IMG/VR virus record: IMGVR_UViG_3300036851_000151
Span: 1 to 62,834 of that record
Strand: one strand, 5' to 3'
Source: a virus
Length of the DNA: 62,834 nucleotides
In this document: piece by piece, positions 2,847 to 62,834 of the stretch
Position numbering within the stretch: the stretch's first letter is position 1
Layout of the letters: every line of letters begins with the position of its first letter
Position numbers and translations under genes: made by a program
Notes under the pieces: model-generated
Seen by the model: only the letters and a program-made list of their open reading frames with translations
The model's database searches: none
Told to the model about the DNA's origin: nothing

Positions 2847-3362
2847 ATGCCGTTTATTAAGCGCCGGATTTACGTAGCGTCATCCTGGCGCAATTCGTTG
2901 CAGCCTGACGTGGTTGCTGCCCTGCGCGAAGAGGGCCACGAGGTCTACGATTTCCGCAATCCGGCGGCCGGCAATAATGGCTTTGGCTGGCGACAGGTAG
3001 ACGAAGACGCTTCCAATTGGACGCCGCGTCGGTTCGCCGAACTGGTGACATCGCATCCGGTTGCCGCCGAAGGTTTTGCGCTCGACAAGGCAGCGCTCGA
3101 CTGGTGCGACACCTGTGTTCTCGTCTTGCCGTGCGGTCGATCCGCTCACTTAGAAGCCGGCTACGCGTGCGGCCAAGGCAAGCACGTTTTCGTCATGCTT
3201 CACGAAGACAAATTCGAGCCCGAGCTGATGTACCTGCTGGCCAAGGGGATCGGCTGCTCGATCGGCGACATGCTCGTGCACTTCCGATACGCGGACGATA
3301 GCTGCAAGCCGGCGCTCGGGTGGGACAACGTGAAGCCACGCTTCGGCTTGGACGCCGCCTAA
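2847..3362 (+). CDS. Nucleoside 2-deoxyribosyltransferase-like protein
   Basis: 171 aa, start ATG with AGGAAACAGGT upstream. It has the N-terminal strand RRIYVASSWRN, then YDFRNP, DKAALDWCDTCVLVLPCGRS and AHLEAGYACGQGK. These match the NDT/DUF4406-like Rossmannoid fold, in which the conserved Asp and the Ser-x-x-x-Glu segment bind nucleoside or ribosyl substrate. It probably acts on nucleotides or nucleosides during infection. It is the first enzyme-like gene of a run of small early genes. The fold is fairly sure and the exact substrate is not. Confidence 0.7.
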   Translation: MPFIKRRIYVASSWRNSLQPDVVAALREEGHEVYDFRNPAAGNNGFGWRQVDEDASNWTPRRFAELVTSHPVAAEGFALDKAALDWCDTCVLVLPCGRSAHLEAGYACGQGKHVFVMLHEDKFEPELMYLLAKGIGCSIGDMLVHFRYADDSCKPALGWDNVKPRFGLDAA

Positions 3363-3430
3363 CACCACCAGAACAACAGATCGCGCCGCCCGCTGGCGGG
3401 TGGGGCGCAGAGGATGACGAGGGCGCAGAG

Positions 3431-3724
3431 ATGACGAAGTGTCCAAAAGTTGGTAGTCGCGTCCGCTTCAAGGGCAACCTCGTGGTTGGCCCGTGCACCG
3501 GAACTGTGCTGCGCATCTATGAGCATGACGAATGGCCGGAATCTTTTCCGACTGGCCTGGCGCCGGAAAGTGATTGGAGTGTCCGGCTCAAGTGCGACAA
3601 GCGCCCGACGCCGTGGTGTTACGGAGATGATTTGGTGTTCGCGCCAAGTGTCAGCGACCTATCGCCACTGAATACCCCACCACCCCGTAACCCGCCGCCG
3701 CGTGCCGCGATGATGGAGAAGTGA
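3431..3724 (+). CDS. Hypothetical early protein
   Basis: 97 aa from ATG 3431, preceded by GAGGGCGCAGAG. An N-terminal beta-rich segment (VGSRVRFKGNLVVG, GTVLRIYEHDEW) looks like a small barrel, and a Pro-rich C-terminus follows. No function is recognised. It ends one base before the next gene. Confidence 0.55.
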   Translation: MTKCPKVGSRVRFKGNLVVGPCTGTVLRIYEHDEWPESFPTGLAPESDWSVRLKCDKRPTPWCYGDDLVFAPSVSDLSPLNTPPPRNPPPRAAMMEK

Positions 3725-3725
3725 C

Positions 3726-3968
3726 ATGTCGTTCAAATTCCACCGAGGCGACTACCTGTCGGACCTGATCACCGGGTTTAAGGGTGTGGTTGTCGGTCGA
3801 TCCGATTATCTCACGAGCTGCAACACGTATTGCCTACAGCCGCCGGTCGATCAGGACGGCAAGCATGTCGACGCGCAATGGTTCGACGAGCACAGCCTGG
3901 AATACGATCCGGCACATCTAGGCCAAAAACTGAGCCTGGAGCGCGCCACCGAACAGCCTCCGGGTTGA
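3726..3968 (+). CDS. Hypothetical small beta-rich protein
   Basis: 80 aa, start with AGAAGTGAC upstream. It has FHRGDYLSDLITGFKGVVVG followed by CLQPPVDQDGKHVDAQWFDE, a pattern seen in small phage proteins predicted to form an SH3-like barrel. No function is known. It probably forms an operon with the preceding gene. Confidence 0.6.
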   Translation: MSFKFHRGDYLSDLITGFKGVVVGRSDYLTSCNTYCLQPPVDQDGKHVDAQWFDEHSLEYDPAHLGQKLSLERATEQPPG

Positions 3969-4016
3969 TTAAAGAGCCGCGAGCCGCGAGCCGCGTGCCC
4001 GTCGTGAGGATGTGAG

Positions 4017-4187
4017 ATGTCACAACGAACTGTACGCAAGCTTCACGATCCATGCCGCACCCTAGCCGACGTGCTGGCGGAGATGCGGGCGCGGCTTGAC
4101 ATCGCGGGCGCCGGTGAAGAGCGGCAGTTGCGCCGATGGATCGCCGTCATCGATGCCGAGATCGCGCAGCGGCAGCGGGCGGCGTGA
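4017..4187 (+). CDS. 56-aa hypothetical protein
   Basis: A short reading frame from ATG 4017, with GTGAGGATGTGAG upstream, to TGA at 4185. It is mostly helical with alternating charge (LADVLAEMRARLDIAG, then ERQLRRWIAVIDAEIAQRQR). It is spaced normally between its neighbours (12 bp to the next start). It is probably a small helical-hairpin protein of unknown role. Confidence 0.5.
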   Translation: MSQRTVRKLHDPCRTLADVLAEMRARLDIAGAGEERQLRRWIAVIDAEIAQRQRAA

Positions 4188-4199
4188 GGGAGAACGGAA

Positions 4200-4826
4200 G
4201 TGGGCATGCGCTTCTCACTGAATTTCAGCCGCGAACATTGGCGCTTGATATTGGCGGCGGTCGATGCGGCCAGGACCAGCATTGGCCAGGATATTCAACT
4301 GAACCGGCCGTCGAGGGCAGGCTTAGAAGCTTTAACGGCCGCAAATGAAGAATACGACCAAATCCGCTCAATTGTCGCTTCCGCTCTCGACGATGCCAGC
4401 AAGGTAACAAAAATGACCATCGACGCAACCACTGCCGACACTATGCCGCGCGACCCGCTCGCGATGGCTGAGACGGCCAACGATCTCATGGTCGAGATCG
4501 GCGATGCCCGCTCCATGCTGGGCCAATGGGCCGCCGGTATCCGCACCCCGAGGATCGCGCGCGAGATGGCGCTGGCATGCCTGCATTCGGCGCGCGAGGG
4601 CATCGACGAGCTGATCCGGGAGTTGGCCGGTCAGCCGCCACCCGCAGCCGATCGATCCATAGCGCCAACCGTATGCCCGCATTGCCGCCTGTTTGTTTCA
4701 AAACGGCGGCTCTTGCCGTTTGGGCGGCTGTCCGATGGGCGGAGATTTCTGATATGCCCCTCGACGCCAGCCTCGCCCAATGCGCCGTCAGGACCGCCCA
4801 CACGCCGACCAGCGACGCCGCGATGA
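4200..4826 (+). CDS. Hypothetical helical protein
   Basis: 208 aa from GTG 4200 (ATG 4206 is alternative), with GGGAGAACGGAA upstream. Long helices fill residues 10-150. Near the C-terminus CPHCRLF resembles half of a zinc knuckle, and the last 30 residues are Pro/Arg-rich and overlap the next gene by 73 bp. The tail may therefore be read-through after a small indel. No function is recognised. Confidence 0.5.
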   Translation: MGMRFSLNFSREHWRLILAAVDAARTSIGQDIQLNRPSRAGLEALTAANEEYDQIRSIVASALDDASKVTKMTIDATTADTMPRDPLAMAETANDLMVEIGDARSMLGQWAAGIRTPRIAREMALACLHSAREGIDELIRELAGQPPPAADRSIAPTVCPHCRLFVSKRRLLPFGRLSDGRRFLICPSTPASPNAPSGPPTRRPATPR

Positions 4827-5096: not shown

Positions 5097-5735
5097 GTGC
5101 CCATCGACCTATCGATCATACCCGTCGAGCGCCTTGCTCTGCTTGACACCGCCATTCTCTTTCATGGCCCGCACCGTGGACAGGGCGGCGGCACCCCCGA
5201 TTGCAAACACTGCGCCCGCGAGCTGCTGATGGAGGTCGTGACGGGGAAGCATGAAGATGCAACTCCGCCGGGCTGCACGACGCTGATGTCGCTCTTGCCG
5301 AGCCTCAACGATGGGCCATGGCGTGACGACGCGCATCGCACCGAAGTCATGCGGCCGTATCTCCGAAAGATGCTGTTGCTCGACCCAGCCAGCGATGAGC
5401 GGCGTGTCTATGCTGTCATCGATCTGGTCTATCGGCAGACGCTGCCGGACAGTTGTGATGCGCTGAAGCTCGACAAGCACGGGTCGGCGCTGCGCGATCT
5501 TGCGCCGATTGTAGATCGGCAATCTGCCCTCGCCGCCCGCGCCGCCCTCGCCGCCCTCGCCGCCCGCGCCGCCCTCGCCGCCCGCGCCTCCCGCGCCGCC
5601 CTCGACGCCCTCGACGCCCTCGACCCCCGCGCCGCCCGCGCCGCCCTCGCCGCCCTCGCCGCCCTCGACGCCCGACCGGCGTCATGGGAGCGAGGGGTCA
5701 AACAGGTTCTTGATCGTATCTGCGAGATCGAGTGA
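5097..5735 (+). CDS. Ala-rich-repeat phage protein
   Basis: 212 aa from GTG 5097, with ACAGGAGACTGA upstream. Residues 1-140 form a globular part containing PDCKHCARELLMEV. Residues about 144-192 are an Ala-Arg/Leu/Asp repeat with three-residue periodicity, probably a long amphipathic helix. A short C-terminal helix (RGVKQVLDRICEIE) ends the protein. Similar Ala-repeat proteins are frequent in early arms of related phages; their role is unknown. Confidence 0.6.
   Translation: MPIDLSIIPVERLALLDTAILFHGPHRGQGGGTPDCKHCARELLMEVVTGKHEDATPPGCTTLMSLLPSLNDGPWRDDAHRTEVMRPYLRKMLLLDPASDERRVYAVIDLVYRQTLPDSCDALKLDKHGSALRDLAPIVDRQSALAARAALAALAARAALAARASRAALDALDALDPRAARAALAALAALDARPASWERGVKQVLDRICEIE
5526..5672 (+). 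repeat. Degenerate 9-bp repeat array in coding sequence
   Basis: About 16 imperfect units of GCCGCCCTC, GCCGCCCGC or GACGCCCTC. All are in frame and encode Ala-Ala-Leu, Ala-Ala-Arg or Asp-Ala-Leu. Changes fall at first and second codon positions of the variable codon. Confidence 0.8.
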
Positions 5736-13894: not shown

Positions 13895-14329
13895 ATGAAT
13901 GACTACGATCCCATTCTTCAGCGCCTTGAGGTAGAGGACGCGGCGAAACACGAGCGCGTCCGTCAAGTGCTCTACGAAGCCGGGCGGCCTGATCTTGTCG
14001 CCGAACTCGACGCCAAGATGCGTGATATCCGCACCGGCGTCGCGATGGCGCAATCGGCCTGGCACAGCATCTCGCCGGCGCAGCGGCTGGCGCTCCAATT
14101 CGCGGCCCACCCAGGATGCAATCTGCGCCGTGTTGGGAATCAATATTTAGCCGCGGCCGCTATATTCCGCCGTCCGGAGCGACCGATACGCGTGCCGACA
14201 GTCCGCAACCTGTGTGCCCGAGAACTGCTGGCATGGAACGGCGGGGCATTCGATCCGGAAGGGGCCGCCGTCATCACCGAGCGGGGCCTGTTCACGCTGG
14301 CGCACGGCCGGCCCGCGGAGGCGCCGTGA
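13895..14329 (+). CDS. Hypothetical protein
   Basis: 144 aa, start ATG behind CGCGGAGGTCGCCG. It has an N-terminal helical segment, then PTVRNLCARELLAWNGG and AAVITERGLFTLAHG, a pattern seen in small phage proteins. It overlaps the excisionase-like gene by 4 bp, tying the early arm to the integration module. Confidence 0.55.
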   Translation: MNDYDPILQRLEVEDAAKHERVRQVLYEAGRPDLVAELDAKMRDIRTGVAMAQSAWHSISPAQRLALQFAAHPGCNLRRVGNQYLAAAAIFRRPERPIRVPTVRNLCARELLAWNGGAFDPEGAAVITERGLFTLAHGRPAEAP

Positions 14330-14727
14330 GCGCCGAGCGCCCCGCCATCGAACCGCTGTACCTGGAGGCGGTCGCCGCCGGCATGATCGGCATCAAGCCG
14401 CGCCAACTGGCGGCTGAGCGCGTTGCCGGCCGGATCACCTTCCGCAAAGTGGCGGGCAGGGTAATGTACCGCGCCGACGATCTGGCCGAATGGCAGGAGA
14501 GCGTAGCATGTCGCGCCCACCCGAGGGACCAAAGCTCCGGCCAAACCGAAAGCGCAAAGGCACCTTCTACATCTACTTCACCGACCGGGCCACCGGGCGC
14601 AGCCGCGAGCGTTCAACGGGCACTCGCGACCGCACAGAGGCTCACCAGATCTTCGCGCGGTGGCTCAGCGAGCGAGACGACGCACCCGCATGGGACGGGC
14701 CACGTCGTGCCGCTCAGGCAACCATAG
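14326..14727 (+). CDS. xis: Excisionase-type HTH protein
   Basis: 133 aa from GTG 14326 (GTGA overlap). Residues about 9-58 (AAGMIGIKPRQLAAERVAGR, then ITFRKVAGRVMYRADDLAEW) are a MerR/AlpA-type winged HTH as in phage excisionases. The last 75 residues run through the start of the integrase gene in another frame and look like non-selected sequence, so the functional protein may be only the first 60 residues. It would direct excision together with the integrase. Confidence 0.6.
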   Translation: MSAERPAIEPLYLEAVAAGMIGIKPRQLAAERVAGRITFRKVAGRVMYRADDLAEWQESVACRAHPRDQSSGQTESAKAPSTSTSPTGPPGAAASVQRALATAQRLTRSSRGGSASETTHPHGTGHVVPLRQP

Positions 14728-15560
14728 CCGACGTGCTGGCGATGTACCTCGAACAGCATGCGGCTGAGCATACCGCCTCACCGGAGACGGCCGCAGCATC
14801 AGTCAAGGCGCTGCTCGGCTGGTGGGGCGAGCGTACCTGCGATTTCATCAAGCCGGAGACATGCCGGCTGTACGTGCGCGCCCGCAAGGCGGCGGGGATC
14901 GCCGAGGCGACAGCAGGCCGCGAGCTGACGACGCTACGGGCCGCGCTCGGGTACGCGCACAAAAACGGGCACCTGCTAGACCGACCGTTCGTCGAGCTGC
15001 CGCAGCGCCCGCCAGGTCGCGACCGCTGGCTCACCCGATCGGAGGCCGCCCGGCTGCTGTGGGAGAGCCGGCGCGAGCCGCACGCGCGTCACCATCTGCC
15101 ACTATTCATCCTGCTCGGGCTGGCAACCGGCGCCCGACCGTCGGCGTTGTTCGACCTCCGTTGGACGCAGATCGATTTTGACCGCGACCGGATCGACTTC
15201 AACCAGCCCGGCCGCCGGCAGACCAGCAAGCGCCGCCCGATCATCTCGATACCGCGGCGGCTGCGCTGGTTCCTCCTGCGAGCGCACGCGCGGGCCTCGT
15301 CGCCCTACGTGCTGTCCTACGGCGGGCACAAACTCACCCGGGTAAAGGTGGCGTTCCGCAAGGCGCGGGAGCGCGCCGGACTCGGGCCAGATGTCTTGCC
15401 GTACACGCTCAGACACACGGCAGGGACGTGGCTCGCGCAGGCCGGCGTCGAACTTTGGATCATTGGCGGCTGGCTCGGGCATACCCAGGCGCGAACGACC
15501 GAGCTCTACGCCCATCATGCACCCGGTTTTATGCAAGCAGCAAGGAAGGTAATGGACTGA
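14508..15560 (+). CDS. int: Tyrosine recombinase, phage integrase
   Basis: 350 aa from ATG 14508 with CAGGAGAG upstream. Residues 1-54 are a small basic N-terminal DNA-binding module (KLRPNRKRKGTFYIYF). A SAM-like core-binding domain follows, then the catalytic domain: Arg210 (GARPSAL), Lys241, Arg302 (PYTLRHT, where Tyr replaces the usual first His), His325 (WLGHT) and Tyr334 (TELYAH). It integrates the phage at attP, which was not located. Its N-terminal module is copied in the gene at 16016. Confidence 0.92.
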   Translation: MSRPPEGPKLRPNRKRKGTFYIYFTDRATGRSRERSTGTRDRTEAHQIFARWLSERDDAPAWDGPRRAAQATIADVLAMYLEQHAAEHTASPETAAASVKALLGWWGERTCDFIKPETCRLYVRARKAAGIAEATAGRELTTLRAALGYAHKNGHLLDRPFVELPQRPPGRDRWLTRSEAARLLWESRREPHARHHLPLFILLGLATGARPSALFDLRWTQIDFDRDRIDFNQPGRRQTSKRRPIISIPRRLRWFLLRAHARASSPYVLSYGGHKLTRVKVAFRKARERAGLGPDVLPYTLRHTAGTWLAQAGVELWIIGGWLGHTQARTTELYAHHAPGFMQAARKVMD

Positions 15561-16006
15561 TGATGCGGATGGTCGTCGAGAAAGACGCGGCCGAAATCCT
15601 AGGCATTCCTCAGCGCACGCTCTACAACGAGCGTCGCGTTGGCCGCATCGGATATCGGCGGGTTGCGGGGCGCATTCCGATCAAGATCGGCTTCACGTCA
15701 TGGGAAGATCCGCAGCACCGGATGGCGCTTCTACAAAGCGGGAACCCGGAGCGGCTGCGGCTGATCTGTGAAGCGCCCGGCGACCGCTATTCAGAAAAGG
15801 CCCTGCACAGAGAGTTTGCCGACGACCGAATGGTCGGCGAGTGGTTCGCCTGCTCTGCCCGATTGCTTGACCTGATCAAGCGGATCAAGGCCGGCGCGGC
15901 CATCGCGGAAGCCCTCAAACCACAGCAAAATACTGGCCAAGAGAACGCCGGCAGAATCCCCGTCAGTTCCCGGAACGTCCCGCAAAACTCCGTAGCAAAA
16001 AGCTAG
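15560..16006 (+). CDS. Chimera: excisionase-like HTH fused to GIY-YIG-superfamily domain
   Basis: 148 aa, TGATG overlap with int. Residues 5-38 (AAEILGIPQRTLYNERRVGR, IGYRRVAGR) follow the same pattern as the HTH of the gene at 14326. At residue 40 it switches directly into a MUG113/T5orf172-like domain: IKIGF (the 'YIG' strand), HRMALLQSGNPERL, RYSEKALHREF and GEWF, with Arg54 and Glu79 matching the conserved Arg and Glu. The first 'GIY' strand is missing at the junction, so nuclease activity is doubtful. The last 40 residues are low complexity. Confidence 0.65.
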   Translation: MMRMVVEKDAAEILGIPQRTLYNERRVGRIGYRRVAGRIPIKIGFTSWEDPQHRMALLQSGNPERLRLICEAPGDRYSEKALHREFADDRMVGEWFACSARLLDLIKRIKAGAAIAEALKPQQNTGQENAGRIPVSSRNVPQNSVAKS

Positions 16007-16015
16007 GATTTGCTT

Positions 16016-16942
16016 ATGGAATCCACCTCGTCTATGTCTTCGCGCCTCATCGCCCAGATCCCAGCATCCGCAGTTTCTAAGGCATCTCGGGGCGTTTCTC
16101 AAAAGGTGCCCGCAAAACGTGTCGGCAGAATCTCGGCGGGCGGCCGACCGCCGGAGGGTCCGAAGCTCCGACCGAACCTAAAGCGGAGCGGGATTTTCTA
16201 CATCTATTTCACTGATCCAGATACCGGGCGCAGCCGCGAAAGGTCAACAGGAACGCGGGATCGGGAGGAAGCCGAGAAGTATTTTGCCAATTGGCGACCG
16301 AACGTGAAGAGGATGTTTAAATCTACGAAAACAGTCTTCGGATTGATATATTTCATCCGAGCGCCGAACGCGATTAAGGTAGGTTTCGCTCAAAACATCG
16401 CCAAGCGCTTCGCTGATATCCAGACCGCGAACCCAGATAGATTGGCGTTGCTGGGTTCGATCGAAGGGAATTACGAAGTCGAGAAAGCTATACTTTACCA
16501 GCTCGCGAAACATCATATTCGCGGGGAGTGGCTCCATGCGCATCCAGAAGTTATCGAATATGTGAACAATTTGCTTTCGGGCAGACCAGCGGGCGCGTTG
16601 CCTGATACGGGAGTTTCGACGATGCCTATCAGAATTCAGCGGTCGCGAGCCAAGGGTTGGCGAATGCCGGCAAACACAATTTATGTTGGACGCCCCAGCC
16701 GCTACGGGAACAAGTATCGCCCCGGACGGCACGGTGATGCAGCTGAGTGTGTGCGGAAATTCCGGGAGGATTGGGAGTACGGCTTGGCCCATCCACTCGG
16801 TAGTGTTCTCTTGAACGCCACGCTCAACGAGCTTCGTGGTCACGATCTCGCATGCTGGTGCGCGCTCGATCTACCGTGTCACGCCGACGTGTTACTCGAA
16901 CTGGCGAACGCACCGCGACTTTTGCGGAGCGTCGGCACATGA
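16016..16942 (+). CDS. Chimera: integrase N-terminus, GIY-YIG-superfamily domain, DUF4326
   Basis: 308 aa from ATG 16016 with AGGA 7 bp upstream. Residues 42-94 (PEGPKLRPNLKRSGIFYIYF, then TGRSRERSTGTRDREEAE) closely copy the N-terminal module of the phage integrase. Residues 107-188 form a complete MUG113-type domain: FGLIYFIRA, IKVGFA, KRFADIQ, a Glu near 156, and RGEW. Residues 204-300 are DUF4326: KGWRMPANTIYVGRPSRYGN, LRGHDLACWCALDLPCHADV. An internal ATG at 16622 behind GGGAG could also make DUF4326 alone. I know of no described protein with this order. Confidence 0.7.
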   Translation: MESTSSMSSRLIAQIPASAVSKASRGVSQKVPAKRVGRISAGGRPPEGPKLRPNLKRSGIFYIYFTDPDTGRSRERSTGTRDREEAEKYFANWRPNVKRMFKSTKTVFGLIYFIRAPNAIKVGFAQNIAKRFADIQTANPDRLALLGSIEGNYEVEKAILYQLAKHHIRGEWLHAHPEVIEYVNNLLSGRPAGALPDTGVSTMPIRIQRSRAKGWRMPANTIYVGRPSRYGNKYRPGRHGDAAECVRKFREDWEYGLAHPLGSVLLNATLNELRGHDLACWCALDLPCHADVLLELANAPRLLRSVGT

Positions 16943-17019
16943 CCGACAGCGCCGACGTTTCCGGAATCTGCGGTTTTTTGAGCACTGTCCGGATTACTGT
17001 CCGGAGAATCCAAGCATGA
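16939..17019 (+). CDS. Possible 26-aa ORF
   Basis: ATGA overlap with the chimera gene. It covers a short direct repeat (two copies of ACTGTCCGGA/G). Composition is not distinctive; real only if the coupling is used. Confidence 0.2.
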   Translation: MTDSADVSGICGFLSTVRITVRRIQA

Positions 17020-18960: not shown

Positions 18961-19539
18961 ATGGCTGAAGGTGCGACTGCGTATCCACTAGCGTGGCCAG
19001 CGGGCTTCGCACGCTCGGCGAAGCGTGAATCTGGTCGGTTCAAGACGACACTTGCCGGCGCGCTGCGGAACGTGCAGGACTCGCTCCGCCTGTTCGGCCA
19101 GGACAGCGGCAAGCCAATATCCGGCGTCGTGATGTCATCGAATGTGACGCTCGGCAGCGAGCGCCCCGCTGATCCCGGTGTCGCGGTCTATTTCACCTGG
19201 GAGGGCATGCAGATTTGCATCCCGGTTGACCGTTACGACAGCGTAGCCGCCAATCTGCAAGCGATCCACCACATCCTTGAGGCTCGGCGCGTCGAACTGC
19301 GCCACGGAACACTGGCGCTTGTTCGCGCCACCTTCTCAGGCTTCAAGGCGCTTCCGGCCCCGAAGAGCTGGCGAGATGTTCTTGAGATCGATGAGGCCGC
19401 GCGCGTTACTGCTGACGACGTGGACCGCCGCTACCGCGATCTGGCAAAACAGCGGCACCCCGACGCCGGCGGGAACGCCGCTGCGATGGTCGAACTCAAT
19501 CAGGCCCGCGCCGATGCCCGCCGAGAGCTTGGCGCATGA
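18961..19539 (+). CDS. J-domain (DnaJ-like) protein
   Basis: 192 aa from ATG 18961 with AAGGACGAGACG upstream. Residues 1-130 form an N-terminal domain (AYPLAWPAGFARS..., DPGVAVYFTWEGMQICIPVD). Residues about 137-190 are a J-domain with helix II (DVDRRYRDLAKQRHPDAGG), including the HPD motif, then MVELNQARADARREL. It should recruit a host DnaK. This architecture is known from phages and plasmids; the phage process it serves is unknown. It is the last gene of the rightward arm. Confidence 0.75.
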   Translation: MAEGATAYPLAWPAGFARSAKRESGRFKTTLAGALRNVQDSLRLFGQDSGKPISGVVMSSNVTLGSERPADPGVAVYFTWEGMQICIPVDRYDSVAANLQAIHHILEARRVELRHGTLALVRATFSGFKALPAPKSWRDVLEIDEAARVTADDVDRRYRDLAKQRHPDAGGNAAAMVELNQARADARRELGA

Positions 19540-21331: not shown

Positions 21332-21417
21332 GCCGGCTTGGTGGAACGGGCAGACACGGCGGACTTAAACTCCGCTGCCATCGCGCATTGAGGGTTCGAG
21401 TCCCTCAGCCGGCCCCA
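21332..21417 (+). tRNA. tRNA-Leu (UAA)
   Basis: The 7-bp acceptor GCCGGCT/AGCCGGC is present. The anticodon loop CTTAAAC gives anticodon TAA, with stem GCGGA/TCCGC. A longish variable arm can pair TGC with GCA. The T arm GAGGG-TTCGAGT-CCCTC is standard, and CCA is encoded. The discriminator base is C, unusual for bacterial tRNA-Leu. UUA is a rare codon in this GC-rich phage, so the tRNA may serve low-GC genes or replace a host tRNA. Confidence 0.85.
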
Positions 21418-21423
21418 AAAATC

Positions 21424-21502
21424 GCTGGCGTAGCTCAGCCCGGTAGAGCGCCCGCTTTGTAAGCGGTCAGGTCGTAGGTTCGGGCTCCTACCGCCAGCAC
21501 CA
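21424..21502 (+). tRNA. tRNA-Thr (UGU)
   Basis: Acceptor GCTGGCG pairs with CGCCAGC, followed by A and encoded CCA. Anticodon loop TTTGTAA gives TGT. D-stem GCTC/GAGC is present. The T arm GTAGG/CCTAC encloses TTCGGGCT, eight bases instead of seven, so the T loop carries an extra base. It lies 6 bp after tRNA-Leu on the strand opposite to the surrounding lysis genes. Confidence 0.8.
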
Positions 21503-62705: not shown

Positions 62706-62812
62706 GCAAATTGCTCAGATGTTAAGCATTTTTTCGTAAGGCAAGCTGATGATGTCGGTGTACATCCTTCCTGTCGCGCTATGCTACCCAGAGAAAAGAC
62801 AGGGAAATGCCG
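62706..62812. repeat. Right copy of 107-bp end repeat
   Basis: Identical to 1-107. It marks closure of the circle or short terminal redundancy. Confidence 0.9.
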
Positions 62813-62834
62813 AAGACGCCAGATACCCCCGAAG
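62807..62834 (+). CDS. Partial second allele of the first gene
   Basis: Nine codons from ATG 62807 (MPKTPDTPE), cut by the window end. The same gene at 102 begins MPDIPDTPE. Third-position and two amino-acid differences show a related but distinct allele. Confidence 0.5.

Follow-up and report, generated by a model that had tools for sequence, protein, structure and literature searches.

The closest described system is Odn (Gp88) of vibriophage ICP1, an origin-directed nuclease in which a T5orf172 domain is joined to a RepA_N domain with 42% identity to its satellite counterpart (PMC8263062). Odn cuts the satellite origin, which is bound by the protein that Odn resembles, and cutting needs a Glu (PMC8263062). 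Its authors knew of no earlier gene against mobile elements that had captured a sequence-specific DNA-binding protein (PMC8263062). In a survey, MUG113 and T5orf172 formed one homing-endonuclease group in which domains are exchanged with satellites; the genes were treated as homing endonucleases lying near conserved phage genes, and the T5orf172 homing genes mostly use CapR, DUF723 or DUF4397 zinc fingers (PMC10448857).

The locus described here lies in a separate virus record of 62,834 bp, the whole of which is called the window. Two of its genes (gene 1 and gene 2) resemble Odn in being phage-encoded, in having an N-terminal sequence-specific DNA-binding domain common to another mobile element's protein and in carrying a GIY-YIG domain of the T5orf172 type in which Arg and Glu are conserved. 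They differ in that the RepA_N of Odn comes from a satellite replication initiator and origin iterons are cut, whereas the domains in the window are an integrase (Int) arm module and an excisionase (Xis)-type helix-turn-helix (HTH). Moreover, the donor family (Int/Xis) is carried by the phage itself with its own att adjoining, whereas the donor of Odn is the satellite. No RepA_N match was found by Pfam in the MUG113 proteins of the window or of four virus records, related to one another, that are considered below (L061, L193, L195 and L196), and the window genes are not members of the Odn family. With the phage T5orf172/MUG113 homing endonucleases they share the nuclease family, conserved-gene neighbours, mosaic architecture and fast turnover, but those enzymes sit near terminase, capsid or nrd genes, whereas the genes of the window and of the L061-type phages have Int/Xis domains and sit in an int-att module. 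In the literature, largely without subscription papers, we found nothing combining integrase, GIY-YIG, arm-type and excisionase. An earlier note on this DNA knew of no described system with such a layout; within the openly readable literature this holds for the integrase and Xis parts, but chimeric T5orf172 nucleases with another element's DNA-binding domain had already been described.

The phage-type genes of the window include terminase, tape measure and a DnaB-like helicase. Between 14.3 and 17.0 kb an Xis-like HTH gene, a tyrosine integrase, gene 1 and gene 2 follow each other on the + strand (Table 1). The resemblance of the first gene to Xis is confined to about its first 60 codons. Gene 1 begins with an ATG that overlaps the int stop, and the start of gene 2, preceded by AGGA, lies ten bases past the gene 1 stop; the two genes thus appear to fill a slot between int and a putative attP. 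The earlier note had placed them directly after the Xis-like and integrase genes, the first as an HTH with the Xis signature joined to a MUG113/T5orf172 domain without its first strand, the second as the integrase N-terminal module followed by a complete MUG113 and DUF4326. Both reading frames are intact, and Pfam and the Xis alignment for gene 1, and profile matches and the integrase alignment for gene 2, agree with that description.

Table 1. Features of the integration locus in the window and of the conserved block in L061-type phages.
Feature	Position	Strand	Evidence or remark
Xis-like HTH gene	14326..14727	+	PHROG excisionase 7.4e-5, HTH_17 3.8e-3; overlaps int
Tyrosine integrase	14508..15560	+	Phage_integrase 7.5e-18, PHROG integrase 5e-52
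N-terminal arm-type module of integrase	residues 1-53		
Gene 1, Xis-like HTH + MUG113/T5orf172	15560..16006	+	MUG113 (PF13455) E=2.8e-10, T5orf172 (PF10544) 5.6e-6
Gene 2, integrase arm module + MUG113/T5orf172 + DUF4326	16016..16942	+	Pfam, alignment, model
Gene 2 integrase-type arm module, residues 44-93	16145..16294	+	40/50 aa (80%) identical to integrase N-terminus
Gene 2 MUG113/T5orf172 domain (GIY-YIG superfamily)	16340..16564	+	Pfam, residues Y112, K121, R131, E156, model
Gene 2 DUF4326 domain	16646..16900	+	Pfam 5.7e-23
Tandem repeat ACTGTCCGGATT / ACTGTCCGGAGA	16984..17008	+	putative integrase arm-type sites (attP)
Conserved non-coding block	L061 9337-9538		
Conserved non-coding block	L193 5031-5222		
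Conserved non-coding block	L195 4619-4805		
Conserved non-coding block	L196 4597-4791		

Some features of the window lie apart from this locus. Its ends (1-129 and 62706-62834) form a terminal direct repeat of 129 bp that is only 95% identical, unlike an exact end repeat, possibly because the assembly mixes strains. At 5526-5674 a unit of about 60-68 bp recurs in copies that are 85-92% identical, and adjoining phage-borne tRNA genes for Leu (taa) and Thr (tgt) occupy 21332-21502. A protein encoded at 18961-19539 has a C-terminal DnaJ-like domain below the Pfam cut-off, and its DNA resembles the 'molecular chaperone' of Microcystis phage Mae-JY30.

In gene 2 an additional N-terminal tail precedes the arm module, which is of the tyrosine integrase arm type (weakly similar to Pfam DUF6538) and stands without core-binding or catalytic domain; Pfam gave no Phage_integrase match in this gene. 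The module is nearest to that of the window's own integrase, with 75.6% DNA identity over 119 bp. Between these two copies pS is 0.80 (saturated) and pN 0.145, and between the integrases of the window and of a related phage (L091) the values are 0.47 and 0.155. Because silent sites are saturated and replacement sites are not, the arm of gene 2 is no recent duplicate of the adjacent integrase. It seems to have been kept at the protein level, on a branch that pN/pS does not tell. Third-position GC is lower in the arm copy than in the integrase, both in the window and in L061. The second part of the protein matches MUG113 (9.6e-8) and T5orf172, the latter complete from model position 1. In the AlphaFold2 model of residues 36-196 (mean pLDDT 81.6) a beta-beta-beta-alpha module is followed by the GIY-YIG-type order beta-beta-alpha-beta-alpha, with a complete first hairpin (strands at model 74-81 and 84-90) that holds Y112. 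The Tyr, Arg and Glu expected of GIY-YIG are retained, and the Glu is followed by Tyr where most relatives have His (ILYQ versus LHxx). That the middle domains are related to GIY-YIG is thus borne out by the profiles of both genes and by the predicted fold of gene 2.

A sequence search of the PDB gave no match for the fusion proteins of the window, and a PDB fold search with the two-domain model of gene 2 returned PCNA alone, which we dismissed as meaningless. In the viral structure library BFVD the best match to the arm and MUG113 model was a 'MUG113' protein of 192 aa from an uncultured phage (A0A6J7WXW5, E 1.3e-8). The alignment runs from end to end, and the protein, possibly a further arm fusion, is taken here as a lead only. 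DUF4326, proposed to process ADP-ribose derivatives (PMC9503650), forms the C-terminal domain of gene 2 and stands alone in other phages, for example at 5007-5420 in L061; the window is the only instance that we encountered of its fusion to an arm module and MUG113.

Candidate binding sites for the arm module can be compared with those of L091 (IMGVR_UViG_3300028802_000058), whose xis and int have 74.6% DNA identity to the window and which has xis-int-att with both gene 1 and gene 2 absent. About 240 bp past its int lies the 3' part of a tRNA-Thr gene, which by eye looks like the att core; ARAGORN called no complete tRNA at this site. Repeats of TGTCCGGATAA flank this core at 1342, 1525 and 1538, and they have the motif TGTCCGGATWA in common with the tandem pair of the window. 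As short tandem pairs like that of the window occur in 4-5% of 100-bp stretches, the repeat alone is weak and it is the motif shared with L091 that carries weight. Together the repeats of both phages are putative integrase arm-type sites. The tRNA-Thr core of L091 had no good match within the window, where an att core of its own was not found.

The reading that we favour, tentatively and as quite possibly correct, is that gene 2, and possibly gene 1, encodes a chimeric GIY-YIG nuclease directed to the att region by a targeting domain from an integration protein. It draws on domain make-up, location, recurrence, candidate arm sites and catalytic-type residues, and we infer from it the binding, cleavage, biological target and self-protection of these proteins. 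Gene 2 would recognise attP at its arm-type repeats by way of the arm module, and gene 1 would recognise Xis sites through its Xis-type HTH. The GIY-YIG body would then nick or cut att DNA in phages or prophages that are related and share the integration system. Competitors would thereby be excluded or cured, and relatives might in addition receive the nuclease gene in their int-att slot (homing); the data fit exclusion, homing or both. The mode would be like that of Odn, with RepA replaced by integrase or Xis specificity. As the phage's own tandem sites begin 42 bp past gene 2, self-cutting would have to be avoided.

Similar genes were observed in phages with a second integrase type. The tyrosine integrase of L061 (IMGVR_UViG_3300037478_000191) is very different from that of the window, and directly 3' of its gene lies a 174-aa fusion of an arm module to T5orf172/MUG113 (T5orf172 1e-11). 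Over 46 aa the arm of this fusion shares 57% identity with the integrase of L061, and over 36 aa it shares 31% with that of the window. It shows a weaker version of the protein-conserved, silent-saturated pattern of gene 2, and it scores slightly better with the integrase of L196 than with its own, as if acquired from a relative. Relatives of the L061 integrase returned from the viral collection were L193, L195 and L196. In L195 and L196 a fusion of HTH_17 (2.4e-6 and 5.7e-7, both above cut-off) to MUG113 lies directly before xis-int, its stop overlapping the xis start and its HTH not derived from the phage's own Xis, and in L193 a MUG113 protein without an extra domain lies directly 3' of int. 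A single MUG113 gene is present in each of these four records, and in each it lies at xis-int-att. The MUG113/T5orf172 profile is over the curated cut-off in these genes and in genes 1 and 2, and the residues expected for catalysis (Tyr, Arg and Glu) are retained in gene 2 and in the genes of the four records. About 100 bp of strongly conserved non-coding DNA (the conserved block of Table 1), probably the att region of L061-type phages, lie immediately 3' of int in L195 and L196; in L061 and L193 the block comes after the MUG113 gene.

The positions of these MUG113 domains and those of the window, scattered over the MUG113 tree with moderate support, point to several separate recruitments. The L061-type phages are related and do not represent four independent events, but their differing architectures are independent. 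Assembly error, which the earlier note had named as a way in which such fusions could arise, is unlikely in view of this recurrence, including the different MUG113 genes in the int-att slot of L061 and L193. A like adjacency, for which the note had proposed a search in other prophages, was thus encountered, and its proposal of Xis and Int specificity on a nuclease-type body is backed by the recurrence in a second integrase family and by the precedent of Odn (PMC8263062). Cleavage or silencing directed at att sites, for example against a competing prophage, as the note also suggested, may be what such proteins do.

The same comparison bears on a somewhat unlikely explanation, that these genes are selfish free-standing homing endonucleases which colonise the conserved xis-int-att module, cleave relatives without them and are copied into the break; the borrowed domains would give a site preference and the phage would gain nothing. 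Between int and att the slot is empty in L091, L195 and L196 versus filled in the window, L061 and L193. The integrases of L061 and L193 are 98.8% identical, yet the MUG113 domains of their slot genes are only about 30% alike, and the junctions lie close to the int end and at the conserved att block, so that turnover of the slot is rapid. This, and the published view of T5orf172/MUG113 genes as homing endonucleases near conserved genes (PMC10448857), is what such colonisation would look like. However, homing needs no capture of a matching DNA-binding domain, and the DUF723 and DUF4397 zinc fingers, usual though not universal in these enzymes, had no Pfam match in the genes of the window, L061, L193, L195 or L196. 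In addition, the overlaps of the gene 1 ATG with int and of the HTH-MUG113 fusions with xis (L195 and L196) suggest co-expression with the integration genes.

MUG113 is rarely found near an integrase elsewhere, which indicates that the association is specific to phages of the window and L061 type. An integrase was nearby in 2 of 72 genomic MUG113 loci, MUG113 was present in one of 50 DUF4326-bearing virus records (that record being L061), and no integrase adjoined the MUG113 proteins picked without regard to integrases (L084-L090 by profile, L189-L192 by record annotation). Scans of viral contigs for gene 1, gene 2 and the arm module revealed no second copy of the exact window fusions, nor did two scans of genome collections. 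In 385 Alphaproteobacteria and 398 Pseudomonadota genomes, queried with arm and MUG113 together or with the MUG113 profile, there were MUG113 proteins and no arm fusions. Because the searches relied on short peptide seeds matched exactly or on a sample of genomes, the absence of further copies is weak evidence. In Mycolicibacterium phage phi1_186018 we discounted an apparent HTH-MUG113 fusion next to an 'integrase', because its N-terminus is CxxC zinc-ribbon-like and the neighbouring 'integrase' has by eye no likeness to one.

Some annotations met in these records deserve mention for their own sake. In L088 (PP947710.1) the 'DnaD-like helicase loader' at 2890-3309 is a CxxC zinc-ribbon joined to MUG113 and the 'integrase' at 3375-4421 does not resemble one, both likely misannotations. 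Integrase frames at 5425-6462 of L096 and 5350-6528 of L102 (Sneathiella and Roseospira genomes) are broken by a stop codon. A MUG113-like coding sequence overlaps or adjoins tRNA-Lys in many T5-like phages of Escherichia and Salmonella.

Gene 1 is the less certain member of the pair. Its Xis-like HTH reaches about residue 40, after which MUG113/T5orf172 begins at the second strand: the MUG113 match covers residues 42-106, and the T5orf172 match begins at model position 13 of 101, which means that the first strand is absent. The HTH_17 match (1.7e-4, under the curated cut-off) is partial, covering model positions 5-35 of 51, and is followed by MUG113, whereas an excisionase has a complete HTH_17/Xis domain alone. 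Over 30 aa the HTH is 63% identical to the Xis of L091 versus 53% to that of the window, as if it had been acquired from a relative, and its signature GRIGYRRVAGR compares with GRITFRKVAGR in Xis. R54 and E79 are present. In alignments the place of the absent first strand is taken by the Xis wing (RIGYRRVAGR), whose Y32 lines up with the Tyr of GIY, and by this alignment the wing may stand in for the strand, in a region (residues 28-37) modelled by AlphaFold2 below pLDDT 50 (mean of the model 66.6). A PDB fold search with the model listed Xis and MerR-type proteins, none significant. Without a normal first strand gene 1 may be inactive as a nuclease.

GIY-YIG homing enzymes can double as repressors, as I-TevI does; a 2006 paper on this subject is among the references of PMC8263062. 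The fusions could likewise be non-cutting regulators that compete with Int and Xis for arm-type and Xis sites and either set the balance of integration and excision or act as repressors of the int operon, with GIY-YIG as a fold for dimerising or for holding DNA. We consider this improbable overall, though it has to be taken seriously, especially for gene 1. The position of the genes inside the xis-int operon, the missing strand of gene 1 and the example of I-TevI all suit it, but the catalytic-type Tyr, Arg and Glu kept in gene 2 and in the genes of L061, L193, L195 and L196 speak against it, as does L091, which appears, from its tRNA-Thr att core, to integrate without such genes. Chance fusions or decaying remnants without common function in a recombination-prone slot are very unlikely, as the truncated domain of gene 1, the fast turnover and a DUF4326 merely appended to gene 2 are outweighed by an arm-MUG113 join made independently in two integrase families with each arm like the local integrase lineage, by the retention of arm protein sequence over saturated silent sites and by reading frames open across 148-308 codons.

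Beyond the window, the att-directed nuclease reading can be extended, more speculatively still, to a class: temperate phages might repeatedly fuse GIY-YIG domains to Int arm or Xis-type domains, place the fusions in or beside xis-int-att and so attack the att region of competitors with which they share an integration system. If this is true, the rivalry of temperate phages over integration sites would have a weapon class of its own in which Int/Xis specificity is combined with a nuclease. It would also add further captures of the Odn kind with a different and easily recognised target, the arm sites of attP. The prediction would be readily tested, since every fusion adjoins the integrase and the att sites that it should recognise.
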